Assembly: GCA_002634385.1 (NCBI GenBank)
Contig: NSJL01000014.1
Location: 1 to 64,000 of the forward strand
DNA: 64,000 nucleotides
Origin: Nitrospira sp.
GTDB taxonomy: Bacteria > Nitrospirota > Thermodesulfovibrionia > Thermodesulfovibrionales > Dissulfurispiraceae
Direction: 5' to 3'
Position 1 is the first letter of the stretch; each line of letters opens with the position of its first letter. This document shows, piece after piece, positions 9,127 through 22,828 of the stretch. The position numbers and the translations under genes are program-made. The notes below the pieces were generated by a model, which saw nothing but the letters and a program-made list of their open reading frames with translations, was not told the DNA's origin and did no database searches.

Positions 9127-9699
9127 TGCGTGAACACCCGGCCCGGCGGCGCGTCGGCAGAATGATGGTCCCGCCGGAGAAAAGCGTCCTTCCCTATCTG
9201 TTCGAGAAATATGCCTGCTTTCAGTGCATCATTCAGTATGGCGTTCATTTCGAAACAGGAGGCAACCCTGAAATCCGGACAACAGGCAATTTTCCGGCAT
9301 GCATGTCAAATAATCCATGAGATACAGATACCTTATTCGTTCTATTATCCACAAAAAGCCATACAAGCGCAATAAATATTTATTAAATTGGAGCAATCTT
9401 TTTGTCTATTTTTGGATCTCTTTACGATAAGCCGGCGGTAATGAAAACCTTTTCGATCAGAGATAATAAGGAAATCAGGAAGTACTCTTCCCCCTGCTAC
9501 ACAGTCAGGGGGACAACTATGGCTAACTCCCCCTCACCCCCTCTTACTCTAAGAGGGGGAATGCAGACCTCTCCCTTTAGGGACGAGGGAACTCCGGGGG
9601 AACTACTCCTCCTCCTCGGAAGAAGGGAACTTTGGGGACACTACTCCTCCCCTTAGGATAACGACATGGGAACTCAATTACGGGAAATAGGCGGGAGCG
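9127..9699. other. Intergenic region with C/T-rich palindromic repeats
   Basis: No credible gene. The left half contains an AT-rich patch (9360-9400, AATAAATATTTATTAAATT) that could carry promoters. From about 9528 to 9656 it holds the palindromic repeat family: ACTCCCCCTCACCCCCTC, TTACTCTAA and GAGGGGGAA, followed by degenerate CTCCTCCTC/GGGAACT units. Short open frames here are translations of the repeats. Confidence 0.6.
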
Positions 9700-16361: not shown

Positions 16362-16724
16362 ATGAAACGCCTTCGAAATGATCCAACCCTGAAGCAACGA
16401 CGCCGGGAGTTGCGGCGCAATCAGACCGATGCGGAAAAAGCTTTCTGGGCGAAGGTGCGCAACAGAGAGTTTTATGGAATGAGATTCCTCCGTCAGTACA
16501 GCGTAGGTCCTTACATTTTGGACTTCTATTGTCCGGATATAAAGCTCGCTGTGGAATTGGACGGCGGACAGCACAATCACTGCACGAACAGGGAACAGGA
16601 TGCAGCCCGCGCAGAATTCCTGAAGAAACAGGGAATCGAAGTGGTGCGGTTTTGGAACCATGAGGTGTTGCTCGATATGCAGGGCGTCCTGACCAGACTG
16701 GCACAGAAGATACCCTCCTCTTAA
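16362..16724 (+). CDS. DUF559 / Vsr-like endonuclease-domain protein
   Basis: 120-residue protein of the DUF559 family (PD-(D/E)xK-type fold related to Vsr mismatch nicking endonuclease). Visible: RRRELRRNQTDAEKAFWAKV, the core F-Y-G-M-RF-RQ-VGPYILDFYCPDIKLAVELDG with catalytic Asp/Glu, GGQH, then GIEVVRFWNHEVL. Cellular role of the family is not established. Both gene ends lie in palindromic repeats: the ATG follows GAGGGGGTGAGGGGGAGTT, and the last codons (IPSS, stop TAA) are encoded by CCCTCCTCTTAAGATAA. It therefore looks like cargo or driver of the repeat element. Confidence 0.8.
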   Translation: MKRLRNDPTLKQRRRELRRNQTDAEKAFWAKVRNREFYGMRFLRQYSVGPYILDFYCPDIKLAVELDGGQHNHCTNREQDAARAEFLKKQGIEVVRFWNHEVLLDMQGVLTRLAQKIPSS

Positions 16725-16977: not shown

Positions 16978-18867
16978 ATGTTTTTGAGGCGAGGAGTCTT
17001 GTTCCTGGTTGCGTGTGCGTTGGTGGCGGCGGTTCCCGTTCATGCCTTTGCAGAAGCGGAGCATGGTGCCGCGAAAGAGCCGGATGAGAAGGAATTCCTC
17101 CGGATGTTCTTCAGCGAGGAGCTCCTCGTCTACTCGGCGACGCGGAGTCCGAAGCCCATCGTCCAGGTCCCCGAGAATATCTCCATCGTCACTGCCCAGG
17201 AGATAGAGCTCATGCATGCCCACTCCCTCGCCGACGTGCTCAATACGGTGGTAGGAGTGCAGATCCAGGCGTATGGGGGCCCTGGCGCTATTGCAACTTC
17301 CTACATTCAGGGGGGAGACGCAGCCCATGTTGCGGTCTACCTCGACGGGGTCAGGATGAACAGCGCCTCGGACAACCTCATGGATGTAGGCTTTATCCCG
17401 GTGACCATGATCGATCGGATCGAGATCATCAAGGGACCCGCCTCCTCGGTCTGGGGCTCTGCCCTGGGGGGTGTGATCAATGTCATTACAAAGTGGGGGA
17501 ATACCACGAAGCCCCTGCGGGGGGTCTTCTCCGCCTCTTTCGGGGAGCAGAATACGAACCACCTCACGGGCGAGCTCTACGGAAAACTGAACAAGTTCTC
17601 CTACTACCTGAACGGGGAGAGGTTCCGGAGCGGGGGGCTGACCACAAATAGCGCATTATCCCAGGGAAACCTGTACACGAAGCTCCGGTACCATCCCTCG
17701 GACGCCTTAGGTATCACCTTCAGCATGGGCTATAACGAAGGGGATAGGGGGACGGGACAGTACGAGCCCTTCGACCTCTCCTTCCGGAACAGCCTCAAAT
17801 ATTTCTTCACCACCCTCTCCCTGGACTACCGCTTTTCTAATACCTTGAACCTCAATGTCTCCCTCAGCAGCCTTGAGCAGATTGTCAGAAACTACAACGA
17901 GCAGTTGAGCAGTGGCATACAGCTCTCCGAGGCGGTCTACGACAACAGGTCACAGGGAGCAAACATAAAGATGATATACAAAAAAGACATCCATAATCTC
18001 GTCTTCGGTCTTGACGGAGAGGAGAGGACCCTGAAGTCCAACGCCATTGGCAGCAAGCAGGACCAGCTCAGGTGGGCCGTTTTCATGAACGACACCCTGA
18101 CCCTGGGCCGTTTCTCTCTCGTCCCGGGGCTGCGGTACGACTACAGCGACACCAACGGGGACTTCATCAGCCCGAGCCTCGGGCTTACCTACCGTATCAC
18201 CCAGGACATTCTCCTGCGGGGGTATGTGGCCCGGGGGTTCAACCTGCCGACCCTCTTTGCCACTTACGGGGACAACCTCCTTTACCGCTCCAACCCGAAT
18301 CTCGAGGTGGAGAAGGTCTGGTCGTACCAGGCGGGCCTCGAGACCACTGCCCTGAGGTATGCCCTCCTCAAGATCTCCCTCTTCCGGCACGATGTCTCGG
18401 ATGCCATCGGTACGGAGCGGGTTTCCGGCTCCTCCTTCACCTATGTGAACAAGGGGCGCCAGAAAAGGCAGGGGATGGAGGTGGAAGCCAGGACAGTGCC
18501 CTTTTACAACACCTCCCTCTTTGCCGGGGGGACTTTCGTGGATGCGGAGGACCGGGACACCGGGGAGACAATAATAAACGTCCCCCGTTACACTTACGAT
18601 TTCGGCATTCGCTACGATGACGAGAGGAGCCTGAAGGGCCTGCTCAAGGGCCGCTACCTGTGGTGGAATATGGATTCGGTATATGGCGCGCAGTATAACT
18701 CCTTCATCGTGGACCTGAATCTGCAGAAGACGGTCTACCTGGGCAAGGGCCATGCCGTCGCCCTCTTTGTGACGGGACACAACCTCTTCAATGGCTCCCA
18801 GTATTGGTTCACCGCTTACAAAAACCCCTCCCGCTGGTGGGAGGCAGGCCTCAAATACAGCTTTTGA
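16978..18867 (+). CDS. TonB-dependent outer-membrane receptor
   Basis: 629-residue receptor: signal peptide (about 1-27), plug domain (about 50-165; EELLVYSATRSPKPIVQVPE, LADVLNTVVGVQIQ, VYLDGVRMN, MIDRIEIIKGPASSVWGSAL, GGVINVITK), then a beta-barrel ending in a C-terminal Phe (GLKYSF) as usual for outer-membrane proteins. It would import a ligand such as a siderophore, metal complex, cobalamin or peptide with TonB energy. The ligand cannot be read from sequence. It heads the operon with the 32-residue peptide and radical SAM enzyme: the precursor ATG is only 18 bases after its stop. A TACAAT at about 16943 may be the -10. Confidence 0.92.
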   Translation: MFLRRGVLFLVACALVAAVPVHAFAEAEHGAAKEPDEKEFLRMFFSEELLVYSATRSPKPIVQVPENISIVTAQEIELMHAHSLADVLNTVVGVQIQAYGGPGAIATSYIQGGDAAHVAVYLDGVRMNSASDNLMDVGFIPVTMIDRIEIIKGPASSVWGSALGGVINVITKWGNTTKPLRGVFSASFGEQNTNHLTGELYGKLNKFSYYLNGERFRSGGLTTNSALSQGNLYTKLRYHPSDALGITFSMGYNEGDRGTGQYEPFDLSFRNSLKYFFTTLSLDYRFSNTLNLNVSLSSLEQIVRNYNEQLSSGIQLSEAVYDNRSQGANIKMIYKKDIHNLVFGLDGEERTLKSNAIGSKQDQLRWAVFMNDTLTLGRFSLVPGLRYDYSDTNGDFISPSLGLTYRITQDILLRGYVARGFNLPTLFATYGDNLLYRSNPNLEVEKVWSYQAGLETTALRYALLKISLFRHDVSDAIGTERVSGSSFTYVNKGRQKRQGMEVEARTVPFYNTSLFAGGTFVDAEDRDTGETIINVPRYTYDFGIRYDDERSLKGLLKGRYLWWNMDSVYGAQYNSFIVDLNLQKTVYLGKGHAVALFVTGHNLFNGSQYWFTAYKNPSRWWEAGLKYSF

Positions 18868-18885
18868 AGGAAGGAGGTGATACCC

Positions 18886-18984
18886 ATGAAGAGAATCGAG
18901 GTGCTCTCGAAGGGAAAGAAGCCGGCTGAAAACACTGCCGTTTGCTGCGCCGGCGGGATGGGTCCTTTTTTGGACGGCATGTAA
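18886..18984 (+). CDS. Candidate RiPP precursor peptide (32 residues)
   Basis: A tiny gene between the TonB receptor and the radical SAM/SPASM enzyme, with an excellent ribosome-binding site (AAGGAGGTGAT, six to seven bases before the ATG). The peptide starts MKRIEVLSKGKKP (basic leader-like part), then has a Cys20-Cys21 pair in AVCCAGGMGPF and ends LDGM. Leader-plus-small-residue/Cys core, position and strong translation signal fit a ribosomally made peptide modified by the next gene's product. I recall a Geobacter 'geopeptide' pairing of similar layout but could not check it. Confidence 0.72.
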   Translation: MKRIEVLSKGKKPAENTAVCCAGGMGPFLDGM

Positions 18985-18993
18985 TCTCTTACG

Positions 18994-19023
18994 TCAGGAC
19001 AGGAGCCCCAACTCCTGTCCTGA
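18994..19023 (+). promoter_or_regulatory. Perfect hairpin between precursor and maturase genes
   Basis: TCAGGACAGGAG (18994-19005) and CTCCTGTCCTGA (19012-19023) form a perfect 12-base-pair stem with loop CCCCAA. No T-tract follows, so it is not a standard terminator; it may stabilise the short precursor mRNA or lower expression of the maturase, as is common between RiPP precursors and their enzymes. Confidence 0.65.
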
Positions 19024-19048
19024 ATCTCTATCAAAATGAGGTGCTGTA

Positions 19049-20332
19049 ATGTTATCACGTTTTTGCACGGTTTGGGAAGAGAAAAATAAGGGGCAGTATC
19101 TTCTCTTCTCGACCCTCCATACCTCGTCAGTCCGGGTGGATGCGTCCCTCCTCCGCGACCTCCGGGAAGGTACCCTTTCGGTGGAGGAGAGAGATGCCCT
19201 CCGCGATGAGGGCATCCTCCAAGGCGAGTACGACGAGCCGGGAAGGATGGAGGGCTTCTTTGACGAGTACAACCGTGCCAGCAAAAGGCTCCATCTCACG
19301 GTGGTCCTGAACCTCGACTGCAACCTCGCCTGCCGGTACTGCTTCGAGGGCACGAGAAAGGGCGACTTCGTCATGACGGAGGAGACCGCCCGGGGCCTTG
19401 CCGACTTCGTACTGGGCCGGGACTGGGCAGGGAAAGAGACCGTGCATCTCACCTTCTACGGCGGGGAGCCCCTGCTCACCGCGGAGCTTATTCCCTATAT
19501 CTCCGGCCTGCTGAAGGAGCCCCTGGAGAGGCGCGGCAAGAAGTACCGCTTCTCCCTGGTGACCAACGGAACGCTCCTTACCGGGAAGGTGGTGCAGCGG
19601 CTCCTGCCCCATGGCCTGCAGGGAGCCCGGATCACCCTGGACGGCCCCCGCCAGACCCATGACTCCCTCAGGCCGTACAAGTCGGGAACAGGCTCCTTTG
19701 ACAAGATCATCGCGAATATAAAAAACGTCTGCCATCTGACCCCCATCCGGATCAGCGGCAATTTCACCCGGAGCACCTACCGCCGTTTTCCGGAGCTCCT
19801 CGACTACTTCCGGGAGGAGGGGCTGACGCCGGACAGGGTGCGCTCCGTCGCATTCTCCCCTGTCACCGGGGAGTCCGCTGAATTCGCCCTGCCGGATTTC
19901 AGGGAGTGCTGCGACTCGATCGCCGAGCCCTGGGTCATCGAGGCGTTGGCGTACCTGCGGGGCGAGGTCATAAAAAGGGGATACAAAGCGCCTCCCCTGG
20001 GCGTAGCGGTCTGCGCCCTGGAGGACGAGGGCTGCTTCACGGTCAACTACGACGGGAGGCTCTACAAATGCCCGGCCCTTATCGGACGGGACCCCTACTG
20101 TGTCGGGGATGTGAAAGAGGGGGCAAAGGACCACCGGGAGAGCCACTGTCTCGACAACTGGAAGAACGCGGAATGCCTCCGGTGCGTCTACCTGCCCCTC
20201 TGTTTCGGGGGATGCAGGTACAGCCTCCTCGTGCGGAACGGAAGCATGAAGGGGGTCGAGTGCAAAAAAGCATACTACGATGCGGCTTTGAGGGATTTCG
20301 TGCTGCAGGATCTCGCACAACAGGAGGGATGA
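19049..20332 (+). CDS. Radical SAM/SPASM peptide maturase
   Basis: 427-residue enzyme. The N-terminal ~80 residues (QYLLFSTLHTSSVRVD...) look like the peptide-binding region typical of RiPP maturases. The radical SAM motif CNLACRYC is at residues 91-98, followed by FYGGEPLL and TNGTLL. The C-terminal SPASM domain is Cys-rich (VCALEDEGCFTVNYDGRLYKCPAL, CLRCVYLPLCFGGCRY), expected to hold auxiliary Fe-S clusters. Such enzymes install thioether, C-C or other crosslinks in a precursor peptide; the 32-residue peptide upstream is the obvious substrate. GAGGTG precedes the ATG. Confidence 0.9.
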   Translation: MLSRFCTVWEEKNKGQYLLFSTLHTSSVRVDASLLRDLREGTLSVEERDALRDEGILQGEYDEPGRMEGFFDEYNRASKRLHLTVVLNLDCNLACRYCFEGTRKGDFVMTEETARGLADFVLGRDWAGKETVHLTFYGGEPLLTAELIPYISGLLKEPLERRGKKYRFSLVTNGTLLTGKVVQRLLPHGLQGARITLDGPRQTHDSLRPYKSGTGSFDKIIANIKNVCHLTPIRISGNFTRSTYRRFPELLDYFREEGLTPDRVRSVAFSPVTGESAEFALPDFRECCDSIAEPWVIEALAYLRGEVIKRGYKAPPLGVAVCALEDEGCFTVNYDGRLYKCPALIGRDPYCVGDVKEGAKDHRESHCLDNWKNAECLRCVYLPLCFGGCRYSLLVRNGSMKGVECKKAYYDAALRDFVLQDLAQQEG

Positions 20333-20340
20333 GCCTCTGT

Positions 20341-21282
20341 ATGGGTAAGAACCTCCCGTCTCCGCCGCGCGCGGGACTATTTTGCTCTCCGGCATGCTGG
20401 CTGCTGATTTGGCTCCTGTTCTGGGCCTTCGGCCTGCCCGGCCTTTCGCGCGCCTGTGAGATCATCGCGGTCAAGAGCGACGCCCTGCCGCTCTACGACA
20501 AGACCCTCAGCGGCATAGAGAGCGTCCTGCCCTGCCGGATCACCTCCGTCCCTCTTTCTCCCTCGAAGGGGAAAGAGGTCCTTGAGCTGATAGAGGACAG
20601 GAACCCCGACGCTGTCGTGGCGGTGGGGACCTATGCCTTCCGGAAGCTCAGAAACGCAAAGATCCCGAACCTCGTCTACACGATGGCCATCCCCTACGAG
20701 GTGGAGAACGACAGCCCGGGAAGCATCACCGGAGTGGGCATCATCATCTCGCCGGAGGTGTACATCGAGAACATCGTGGAGGTATTCGGCAGTATCAGGA
20801 GGCTCGGGGTCCTCTACAGCCCGGGAAAAGCCTCCGGGTATGCACGGGAGATCTTTTCCGCAGCCCGGGCCAGGGGGGTCGAGGTGCTGCCGATCGAGGT
20901 GCACTCGGTGGAGGACGTACCCCCGGCCTTCAGGGAGCTCAGGAGCAGGCCGGATGTGCTGCTCATGCTGCCCGACCCCGCGGTCGCCAGCCCCGAGGCG
21001 CTCAACGCCATCCTCCTCTATTCGTTCCAGAACAGCATTCCCCTGGTATCGTTCGCACGGAAGTACGTTACGATGGGGGCCGTCCTCTCCCTGGAGGTCG
21101 ATCCCTTCGATATCGGGGTGCAGACGGGGGAGCTGATAGGGAAGATCCTGAAAGAAGGCAGATCCTCCGCCCGGAAGCTGTATGCCCGGAAAGTCAGGCT
21201 CACCATCAACCAGAAAGTCGCCCAGAAGATGTCCCTGCCCCTCAGAGAGAGCAGTCTCAAGCGGGCGGAGATCATACGGTAA
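20341..21282 (+). CDS. Periplasmic ABC-type substrate-binding protein (PF04392-like)
   Basis: 313 residues with a signal peptide (hydrophobic LLIWLLFWAFGLPGLSRA near residues 21-37) and a two-lobe binding-protein body (DAVVAVGTYAFRKLRNAKIP, VYTMAIP, GVGIIISPEVYIENI, IRRLGVLYSPGKASGYAREI, RPDVLLMLPDP, SIPLVSFARKYVTMGAVLSLEVDPFDIG). This matches the ABC_sub_bind family, but no permease or ATPase is next to it. The following gene is a sensor kinase, so it may present a ligand to the kinase. An ATG 12 bases earlier overlaps the maturase stop; spacing from AGGAGG favours 20341 slightly. Confidence 0.8.
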   Translation: MGKNLPSPPRAGLFCSPACWLLIWLLFWAFGLPGLSRACEIIAVKSDALPLYDKTLSGIESVLPCRITSVPLSPSKGKEVLELIEDRNPDAVVAVGTYAFRKLRNAKIPNLVYTMAIPYEVENDSPGSITGVGIIISPEVYIENIVEVFGSIRRLGVLYSPGKASGYAREIFSAARARGVEVLPIEVHSVEDVPPAFRELRSRPDVLLMLPDPAVASPEALNAILLYSFQNSIPLVSFARKYVTMGAVLSLEVDPFDIGVQTGELIGKILKEGRSSARKLYARKVRLTINQKVAQKMSLPLRESSLKRAEIIR

Positions 21283-21295
21283 GGAGGGGGATCCG

Positions 21296-22828
21296 ATGCT
21301 CTCTTTCCGACAGAAGAGCTTCAGGAACCGGATCGTCCTCGCCGTTGCCCTGCTGACGCTCGTGCTGCAGTCCCTTCTGTCGATTATCCTGTACCGTGTG
21401 CATGTCCACGGCATCAGGGAGAAACTCATCCGGGAGGGGGAATCCCTTACCGCCATCCTCTCCCAAAGCGCCGTAAGCGGGACCTACTCGGAGAGCCCCG
21501 AGCAGCTTGCAGGAGTGGTACGGGGCATCCTCCATCACCGGACCATCACCTCGATCCATATCTACAACGGACAGTGGTTCCCTATCTACGAGGAGCGGAA
21601 AGTGCCCCATTTCAATTCGTCCCTTCATCAGCTCTCTCCCCGGGAGAGGGAGAGGATGATGCAGACGGAGCGTTTCCTCGAGACAAAAAACGCTTTCGAG
21701 TTCATCCGCCCGGTCATCCTCGAGATCCTCGACTATAACGAAGCCGCACTGTATGGGAGCAGCCCGGCGGGGAAGAGCAAGCTCATCGGTTATGTCAGTC
21801 TCGCCATGGACAAGAGCGACTACCAGAGGGAGATCCATTCCCTGTTGCTCACTGTTTTCGGGGTTACCCTGCTTCTCCTCATATCGGGCGCCTCGATCAT
21901 CTATGTCCTCGTCGACCGCGCTTCCGTCCCCCTTCGCCACCTCACCAAAGCGGCGGAAAAGATCGGGAGAGGCGAGGAGGCCGGCGAGATCCCCTCCGGT
22001 CCGTACGATGAGTTCTCCCGGCTTGCGGAGGCTTTCAACAACATGTCCTCCGGACTGCAGGAACAGAAAAAAGAAAACATCCAGCTCATGGAAAAATTGA
22101 TCGCGTTGGGACGTATCGAAGCGACGGGCACTCTCGCGCGGGGAATTGTCCATGATTTCAACAATATCCTTACGACGTTGCGGGGTTATGTCCATATAAT
22201 GCGGAAAGGACTCACCCCTGACAGCATCTCCCTCTCCTGCCTCAACAACATGGATGTGGCCATCGACCGGATGAGCAAGCTGATCCGGGATCTTATTGCC
22301 TTCAGCAGCAACCGGAATGTTTCTTTTGAGAATGTGGAGGTCAATTCCCTCGTCGACTGCCTCGAGAAACCGATCCGGTCCTCCCTCGGGGGGGGGATCG
22401 TGTACCAAAGGGACCTCTGTGCCCGTTTCCTGTTCGTCCATGGCAATCCCTCGCTGCTCGAACAGGTGATAATGAATATCGTCCACAATGCGGCGGACGC
22501 CATGGCAGGGGAGGGGACCCTCAGCATCATGACAAAGGAGCATTTCGGGGCGGACGAGAAAGAGGAGGAAAAAGGCTCCTTCCCCCTCGACGAGACCAGG
22601 CGCTTCGCTGTCATCAGGATCACCGATACCGGTCCGGGCATCCCGGACGATGTCAGGAAAAGGATGTATGAGCCGTATTATACGACGAAGGAGAACGGCA
22701 GGAACTCGGGACTGGGGCTTTCCATCGTGTACGGGATAGTGCGGGACCACAAGGGGAGCATTTTCTGCCACTCCGAAACAGGAAAGGGGACTGCTTTCAG
22801 CATCTACCTGCCCCTTGTCGAACAGTAA
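21296..22828 (+). CDS. Membrane sensor histidine kinase
   Basis: 510 residues: TM1 at about 12-33, a periplasmic sensor of about 145 residues, TM2 at about 182-203, a HAMP domain (VPLRHLTKAAEKIGRGEEAG), the phospho-acceptor box ARGIVHDFNNILTTLRGY, and a HATPase domain (N box IVHNAADAM, G1 DTGPGIP, G2 GLGLSIVYGIV). No response regulator lies nearby. The gene follows the binding protein by 13 bases with AAGGAGG upstream of the ATG at 21296. It probably senses the ligand handled by the TonB receptor or binding protein. The TAA stop is the start of a palindromic repeat. Confidence 0.9.
   Translation: MLSFRQKSFRNRIVLAVALLTLVLQSLLSIILYRVHVHGIREKLIREGESLTAILSQSAVSGTYSESPEQLAGVVRGILHHRTITSIHIYNGQWFPIYEERKVPHFNSSLHQLSPRERERMMQTERFLETKNAFEFIRPVILEILDYNEAALYGSSPAGKSKLIGYVSLAMDKSDYQREIHSLLLTVFGVTLLLLISGASIIYVLVDRASVPLRHLTKAAEKIGRGEEAGEIPSGPYDEFSRLAEAFNNMSSGLQEQKKENIQLMEKLIALGRIEATGTLARGIVHDFNNILTTLRGYVHIMRKGLTPDSISLSCLNNMDVAIDRMSKLIRDLIAFSSNRNVSFENVEVNSLVDCLEKPIRSSLGGGIVYQRDLCARFLFVHGNPSLLEQVIMNIVHNAADAMAGEGTLSIMTKEHFGADEKEEEKGSFPLDETRRFAVIRITDTGPGIPDDVRKRMYEPYYTTKENGRNSGLGLSIVYGIVRDHKGSIFCHSETGKGTAFSIYLPLVEQ

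Follow-up and report, generated by a model that had tools for sequence, protein, structure and literature searches.

A 64,000-nucleotide stretch of a Nitrospira sp. genome (contig NSJL01000014.1, assembly GCA_002634385.1; hereafter the window) carries at positions 16978-22828 five genes in one direction, encoding a TonB receptor, a 32-residue peptide, a radical S-adenosylmethionine (SAM)/SPASM enzyme, an ABC_sub_bind protein and a histidine kinase. Comparison with related loci, which carry this gene set in dozens of species, supports an evolutionary link between the peptide, a geopeptide-type precursor of a ribosomally synthesised and post-translationally modified peptide (RiPP), and both TonB-dependent uptake and a binding protein/kinase sensor. 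This link is drawn from conserved gene neighbourhoods, from co-occurrence and from correlated divergence of maturase and receptor. The likeliest reading is a complete methanobactin-like circuit, in which the peptide would be modified, exported, recaptured and sensed; the case for it is about evenly balanced.

The maturase and its precursor peptide

An earlier reading of the window, made from the sequence only, had proposed that the radical SAM/SPASM enzyme matures a RiPP. Consistent with this, the enzyme matches TIGR04280, the geopeptide radical SAM maturase model, at 523.1 bits over residues 2-423 of 427 (cut-off 400) and falls below the cut-off of every other NCBIfam maturase listed. Its best named relatives are from Nitrospirae/Thermodesulfovibrionia assemblies. 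The CNLACRYC motif (C91, C95 and C98) and the canonical seven-cysteine SPASM set (C322, C341, C376, C379, C385, C389 and C405) are invariant across 50 maturases. In an AlphaFold2 model (pLDDT 95.3) the N-terminal domain has a predicted β3-α3 arrangement of three strands plus helices, as in a RiPP recognition element (RRE), and the best match in the PDB, by sequence and by fold, is CteB (5WHY/5WGG). That this domain is an RRE is suggested by the order in which these elements come and by a match to CteB over nearly the full length. By analogy, the nearness of the enzyme to the thioether-forming CteB points to a putative Cys thioether linkage in the product, to C-alpha or C-beta/gamma as in sactipeptides and ranthipeptides. 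The related thioether maturase PapB joins Cys to Asp or Glu (PMC9413430); acidic residues are rare in geopeptide tails, so the acceptor residue would differ from that used by PapB. Carriage by a phage or plasmid was rejected: phages gave no near DNA match and plasmids gave only distant radical SAM enzymes.

The sequence-only reading had also pointed to the TIGRFAM geopeptide models as a check, and here the outcome was divided: the maturase passes TIGR04280, but TIGR04229, the curated geopeptide model (cut-off 30 bits), leaves the window peptide unmatched even at E 10. Of nine related precursors tested, only L046 passed the same model. A profile was built from 44 precursors of other genomes, with the window peptide left out. 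This profile ranked the window peptide first among 547 small open reading frames (ORFs) of the window, with an E value of 5.1e-12 (next best 0.28).

Maturase loci were gathered from relatives in the Nitrospirota and Desulfobacterota (59 non-redundant loci), and a precursor was defined as an ORF of 20-85 residues led by a Shine-Dalgarno (SD) sequence, containing CC and lying no more than 900 nucleotides upstream of the maturase. Such an ORF is present in 52 of the 59 loci, as against 130 of 1539 control stretches (8.4%) from the same loci; when the motif V..G...CC is required, the figures are 45 of 59 loci and 1.8% of control stretches. At least three of the seven loci without a precursor are explained, by a contig end (L035), an SD sequence outside the list used (L163) and a precursor of 88 residues (L167). 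The CC pair was built into the search, and its presence in every collected peptide carries no evidential weight. The reality of the precursor rests instead on how far the count exceeds that of the control stretches, on the shared leader motif, on position, on the SD sequence and on selection, the last indicated by a pooled ratio of nonsynonymous to synonymous change (pN/pS) of 0.35 in seven pairs of related precursors, which argues for purifying selection. Together, these data place the window peptide far beyond chance. Related radical SAM genes do keep a small upstream peptide, and that peptide is conserved; the sequence-only reading had named the opposite of each as an observation that would tell against it. 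The good ribosome-binding site (AAGGAGGTG) and the Cys-Cys core that it had described are likewise present.

The window precursor has a leader that begins MKRIEVLSKG and ends in the core VCCAGGMGPFLDGM. Across the family the common pattern is I/V-V-L-x-x-G and a spacer of mostly 8-12 residues, followed by the CC pair and, as a rule, by x-G-A/G; the tail has 7-14 residues and is strongly variable except for Gly/Ala. Some precursors of loci L147, L149, L161, L162, L167 and L168 have long Lys/Ala-rich leaders, of up to nearly 80 residues, that resemble histone H1 repeats; these replace the V..G leader and leave the CC core unchanged. Locus L169 (genome G206) has a tandem pair of precursors upstream of a single maturase gene, and their cores, WGACCAGAFPAF and WGRCCAGAFPWFGG, are almost the same.

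Between the precursor and maturase genes of the window is a strong hairpin, overlooked in the sequence-only reading, with a folding free energy of -26.2 kcal/mol (z -5.2 against dinucleotide shuffles). Its position is conserved, with z below -2 against mononucleotide shuffles in 44 of the 49 loci that have a suitable gap, and T runs follow many of the relatives' hairpins, as in intrinsic terminators. The element is likely to be a partial terminator or a processing or stability element. RiPP operons commonly make precursor in excess over enzyme, and the hairpin would fit such an excess over the maturase.

Conserved neighbours, exporters and deep relatives

Neighbourhood counts cover 61 maturase loci, with one contig counted twice. 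The sequence-only reading had proposed conservation of the TonB receptor as neighbour as a check, and a receptor related to that of the window is found in 55 of these loci; 50 encode a PF04392-type binding protein, and 47 a kinase or regulator. The order in most Nitrospirota is receptor, peptide, maturase, binding protein and kinase, often then a sigma-54 regulator, and in many Desulfobacterota the binding protein-kinase pair is divergent from the receptor. A response regulator of the sigma-54 or LuxR type is encoded downstream in many related loci. That the linkage survives rearrangement suggests a shared function of the linked genes. No conserved gene beyond those for the radical SAM enzyme, the TonB receptor, the binding protein, the kinase or response regulator and a half-length major facilitator superfamily (half-MFS) protein recurs in the loci.

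The sequence-only reading had seen no exporter; this is true of the window locus but not of its relatives, which encode half-MFS, full MFS or ATP-binding cassette (ABC) exporters. The half-MFS protein, of 185-190 residues, is found in seven related loci, where its gene overlaps or closely trails the maturase gene, several overlapping its stop codon. An MFS-like gene, assigned by eye, lies nearby on the opposite strand in L042, L050 and L151. A search of the window's own genome for a dedicated half-MFS protein gave only weak matches to longer transporters.

Four Omnitrophota/Auribacterota loci (L057, L062, L063 and L067) encode deeper relatives of the maturase, which score 244-310 bits against TIGR04280 and so lie below its cut-off. 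The gene order there is an SBP_bac_5 binding protein, a CC peptide, the maturase and an ABC exporter, whose gene overlaps or abuts that of the maturase, and a TonB receptor is encoded upstream in three of the four (L062, L063 and L067). SBP_bac_5, an oligopeptide (OppA)-type family, stands in for PF04392 in these loci. No other argument ties binding and transport to the peptide as strongly as this rebuilding of the same logic with a different binding-protein family in deep relatives. In Acidobacteria, loci L058-L061 have related maturases, and no CC peptide was found in them; in L061 an SBP_bac_5 protein and a dCache kinase are encoded downstream, and genes of similar size follow in the others.

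The TonB receptor

Among 60 relatives, the receptor type is present in all 12 genomes that have the maturase and in 2 of the 48 that lack it; the receptor searches used a similarity cut-off, so the number of receptor-only genomes may be an underestimate. Distances among maturases track those among receptors, with a correlation of 0.83, where the maximum of 300 permutations was 0.21. In the two-locus genomes G206, G242 and G299 the nearest maturases and receptors sit in other genomes and not in the partner locus. The locus receptors form a group that takes in a few maturase-free copies but not two other TonB receptors encoded in the window's own genome.

No N-terminal signalling domain was detected in the window receptor. 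BtuB is its best solved relative, but identity as BtuB was rejected, the score against TIGR01779 being 155 bits, far below the cut-off of 599.7; cobalamin uptake was set aside on this score and because no riboswitch was found in the window or in eight related loci. The PqqU model gave 54 bits (cut-off 1200), and the PqqU structure was also among the weak matches. Upstream of 48 receptors, boxes for metal regulators (Fur, NikR, Zur, MntR, copper-type and ModE) were not convincingly more frequent than in shuffled sequence; Fur-like sites occur in 17% of receptor upstream regions and 10% of AT-matched background. Sigma-54 promoters, expected because NtrC-type regulators trail many loci, were not above background. 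An apparent receptor-upstream motif, GGAAATGA, was found at 17% versus 1.7%; its positions vary and fall partly on start codons.

A second receptor, 84% identical to that of the window, is encoded elsewhere in the assembly (G000:C14, L171:6728-8620, minus strand) with neither maturase nor peptide. Next to it are genes for a P-type cation ATPase and for a divalent cation/proton antiporter of the GDT1 family, and these cation-transport neighbours are a possible hint at cargo. The assembly (4.31 Mb, 77 contigs) has an estimated contamination of 5.9%, so this receptor, being on another contig, could be from another organism.

Layout of the locus

The five genes, their order, single direction and small gaps are all as the sequence-only reading had described (Table 1). 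Successive gaps are 18, 64, -4 and 13 nucleotides, and the start of the binding-protein gene overlaps the maturase stop codon (ATGA), an arrangement from which co-transcription of the five genes is probable. The binding protein has an N-terminal hydrophobic signal, and no permease or ATPase is encoded nearby. Downstream of the kinase is a nucleoside phosphorylase-family gene (PF01048), apparently unrelated to the locus, and no response regulator follows.

Table 1. Features of the geopeptide-type locus and the basis of each assignment
Feature	Position	Strand	Basis
TonB-dependent outer-membrane receptor, 629 residues	16978..18867	+	TonB barrel and plug (PF00593, PF07715); signal peptide; distantly BtuB/CirA-like
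Shine-Dalgarno sequence AAGGAGGTG of precursor gene	18871..18879	+	Direct reading of sequence
RiPP precursor, 32 residues, MKRIEVLSKGKKPAENTAVCCAGGMGPFLDGM	18886..18984	+	Leave-out profile; position kept in relatives
Stem-loop, 12 bp, between precursor and maturase genes	18994..19023	+	Folding free energy and z; position kept in relatives
Radical SAM/SPASM RiPP maturase, 427 residues	19049..20332	+	TIGR04280; Pfam Radical_SAM; invariant Cys; AlphaFold2 model
Periplasmic binding protein, ABC_sub_bind family	20329..21282	+	PF04392, 88 bits; solved relatives 3lkv, 3lft
Membrane sensor histidine kinase, 510 residues	21296..22828	+	Pfam sCache_4-HAMP-HisKA-HATPase

A dispersed GC-rich palindromic repeat, CCYCCYCTTACCCTNANRGG, has 11 matches in the window against 0.06 expected, with sites at 9537, 13708, 16105, 16330, 16740, 22839, 24351, 31346 and 31440; copies directly flank the RiPP locus on either side. 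A small ORF between repeat copies (16362-16724) encodes what we take to be a DUF559-type endonuclease-like protein.

Discussion

In the proposed circuit the precursor would be made in excess over the maturase through the intervening hairpin, and the RRE-like domain of the maturase would bind the leader at its VLSKG region. The enzyme would then act on the Cys-Cys core, in all likelihood joining Cys to neighbouring residues through one or two thioether bonds. The product would be trimmed by proteolysis and released by a housekeeping exporter or by a locally encoded one, such as the half-MFS or ABC exporters of relatives. Probably carrying a small ligand, such as a soft metal, it would re-enter by way of its dedicated TonB receptor. 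The binding protein would then present the product to the sCache kinase, and this kinase may set expression of the system as feedback.

A close parallel is methanobactin, with a precursor of 22-40 residues, the exporter MbnM, the TonB receptor MbnT and the OppA-like MbnE (PMC7558416). Of the MbnA, MbnBC, MbnT, MbnE and MbnM set, the window has counterparts of the short Cys-containing precursor, of the TonB receptor and of the binding protein; an exporter counterpart is present only in geopeptide relatives, and an oligopeptide-type binding protein only in deep relatives. Geopeptide loci differ from methanobactin loci in having a radical SAM/SPASM enzyme, no conserved MbnB or MbnC, and histidine-kinase sensing, and copper binding would be putative.

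The locus resembles geopeptide families TIGR04229/TIGR04280 in its maturase, 123 bits over the cut-off, and in a CC-core precursor with a V..G leader just upstream; it departs from them in that the precursor lies outside TIGR04229 and that the model names cover peptide and maturase only, not the receptor, binding protein, kinase and exporter set. The maturases of SCIFF (CteB/ScfB) and of ranthipeptides (PapB) share with the window enzyme the radical SAM and SPASM domains and an N-terminal leader-binding domain. The window enzyme is nevertheless below those curated cut-offs (143 bits against the PapB model), and their substrates have six spaced Cys or CX3D motifs where geopeptides have a single CC.

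Several points weigh against the circuit. No exporter, protease or response regulator is encoded in the window locus, and no Fur, Zur, MntR, NikR, copper-type or sigma-54 site or cobalamin riboswitch was found near the receptor. TonB receptor-binding protein-kinase modules without a maturase occur in G038 (L198), in G032 (L199) and on contig C63 of the window's own genome, and solo receptors occur elsewhere. The modules show that the sensor does not belong to the peptide alone. Modules and solo receptors may be pirates, or uptake cheaters, of a shared product, or a sign of another ligand. Finally, we infer the metal, the core modification and the binding of the peptide by the receptor. The sequence-only proposal that peptide, TonB uptake and sensor are joined thus stands as an evolutionary link, and not as a sensor devoted to the peptide.

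The maturase and receptor could alternatively serve signalling only: the geopeptide would be a Gram-negative peptide pheromone, admitted to the periplasm by the TonB receptor and read as an extracellular signal by the binding protein and kinase, with no metal involved. The near-constant presence of that pair, the response regulators of many loci and the oligopeptide-type binding protein of deep relatives all favour it. It is doubtful, however, because a TonB receptor seems to us costly for a plain signal and because sensor modules occur without the peptide too. That receptor, binding protein and kinase serve an unrelated nutrient, with the maturase cassette merely an operon neighbour, is unlikely: the maturase-free modules and the 84% identical receptor beside cation-transport genes speak for it, but the linkage holds in 55 of 61 loci and two phyla despite rearrangement of the binding protein-kinase pair, the distances are correlated, and the logic is kept when SBP_bac_5 replaces PF04392.

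Pyrroloquinoline quinone (PQQ) offers a further precedent, being made from a short peptide with a SPASM radical SAM enzyme and having the TonB receptor PqqU. By this analogy the Cys-Cys core would become a small redox or metal cofactor, excised and used in the cell, with the TonB receptor salvaging it. The weak matches of the receptor to PqqU agree with this, as does a tail that varies beyond CC except for Gly/Ala, as expected if CC alone matters. Shared with PqqA/PqqE and PqqU are indeed the short peptide, the SPASM enzyme and the TonB receptor; yet the window enzyme is a TIGR04280 member, the receptor is far below the PqqU cut-off, and no further conserved biosynthetic gene, protease, processing enzyme or cofactor-using enzyme lies nearby, while exporters and sensors recur, which makes a cofactor quite unlikely. 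Radical SAM RiPPs are often antimicrobial and TonB receptors serve as microcin ports, but an antimicrobial with the receptor as entry port or immunity factor is highly improbable, given that no immunity gene was found and that receptor and sensor sit in the producer's own locus in many species.

Peptide and maturase are already known as named families, so that the geopeptide in itself does not count as a new kind of RiPP. The literature searched, which left subscription papers mostly outside its coverage, had no mention of geopeptide or TIGR04280, nor of a link to TonB receptor, binding protein, kinase or exporter. Radical SAM maturases with tiny precursors are widely annotated, but for most of them neither product nor purpose is known. 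In the present case a strongly conserved receptor and sensor, joined by exporters in relatives, give a curated orphan pair a testable functional hypothesis; in addition, the curated precursor model TIGR04229 misses most members of the family (eight of the nine tested). On this hypothesis, anaerobes living in sediments and groundwater would secrete and recapture a peptide that may bind metal; if that is right, the methanobactin strategy would have arisen a second time, independently. Tentatively, geopeptides may be a new class of RiPP metallophore, or a pheromone that reports metal, in anaerobic members of the Nitrospirota, Desulfobacterota and Omnitrophota: a Cys-Cys peptide altered by radical SAM chemistry, exported, taken back by its own TonB receptor and read by the binding protein and kinase, with enzymes unrelated to those of methanobactin.

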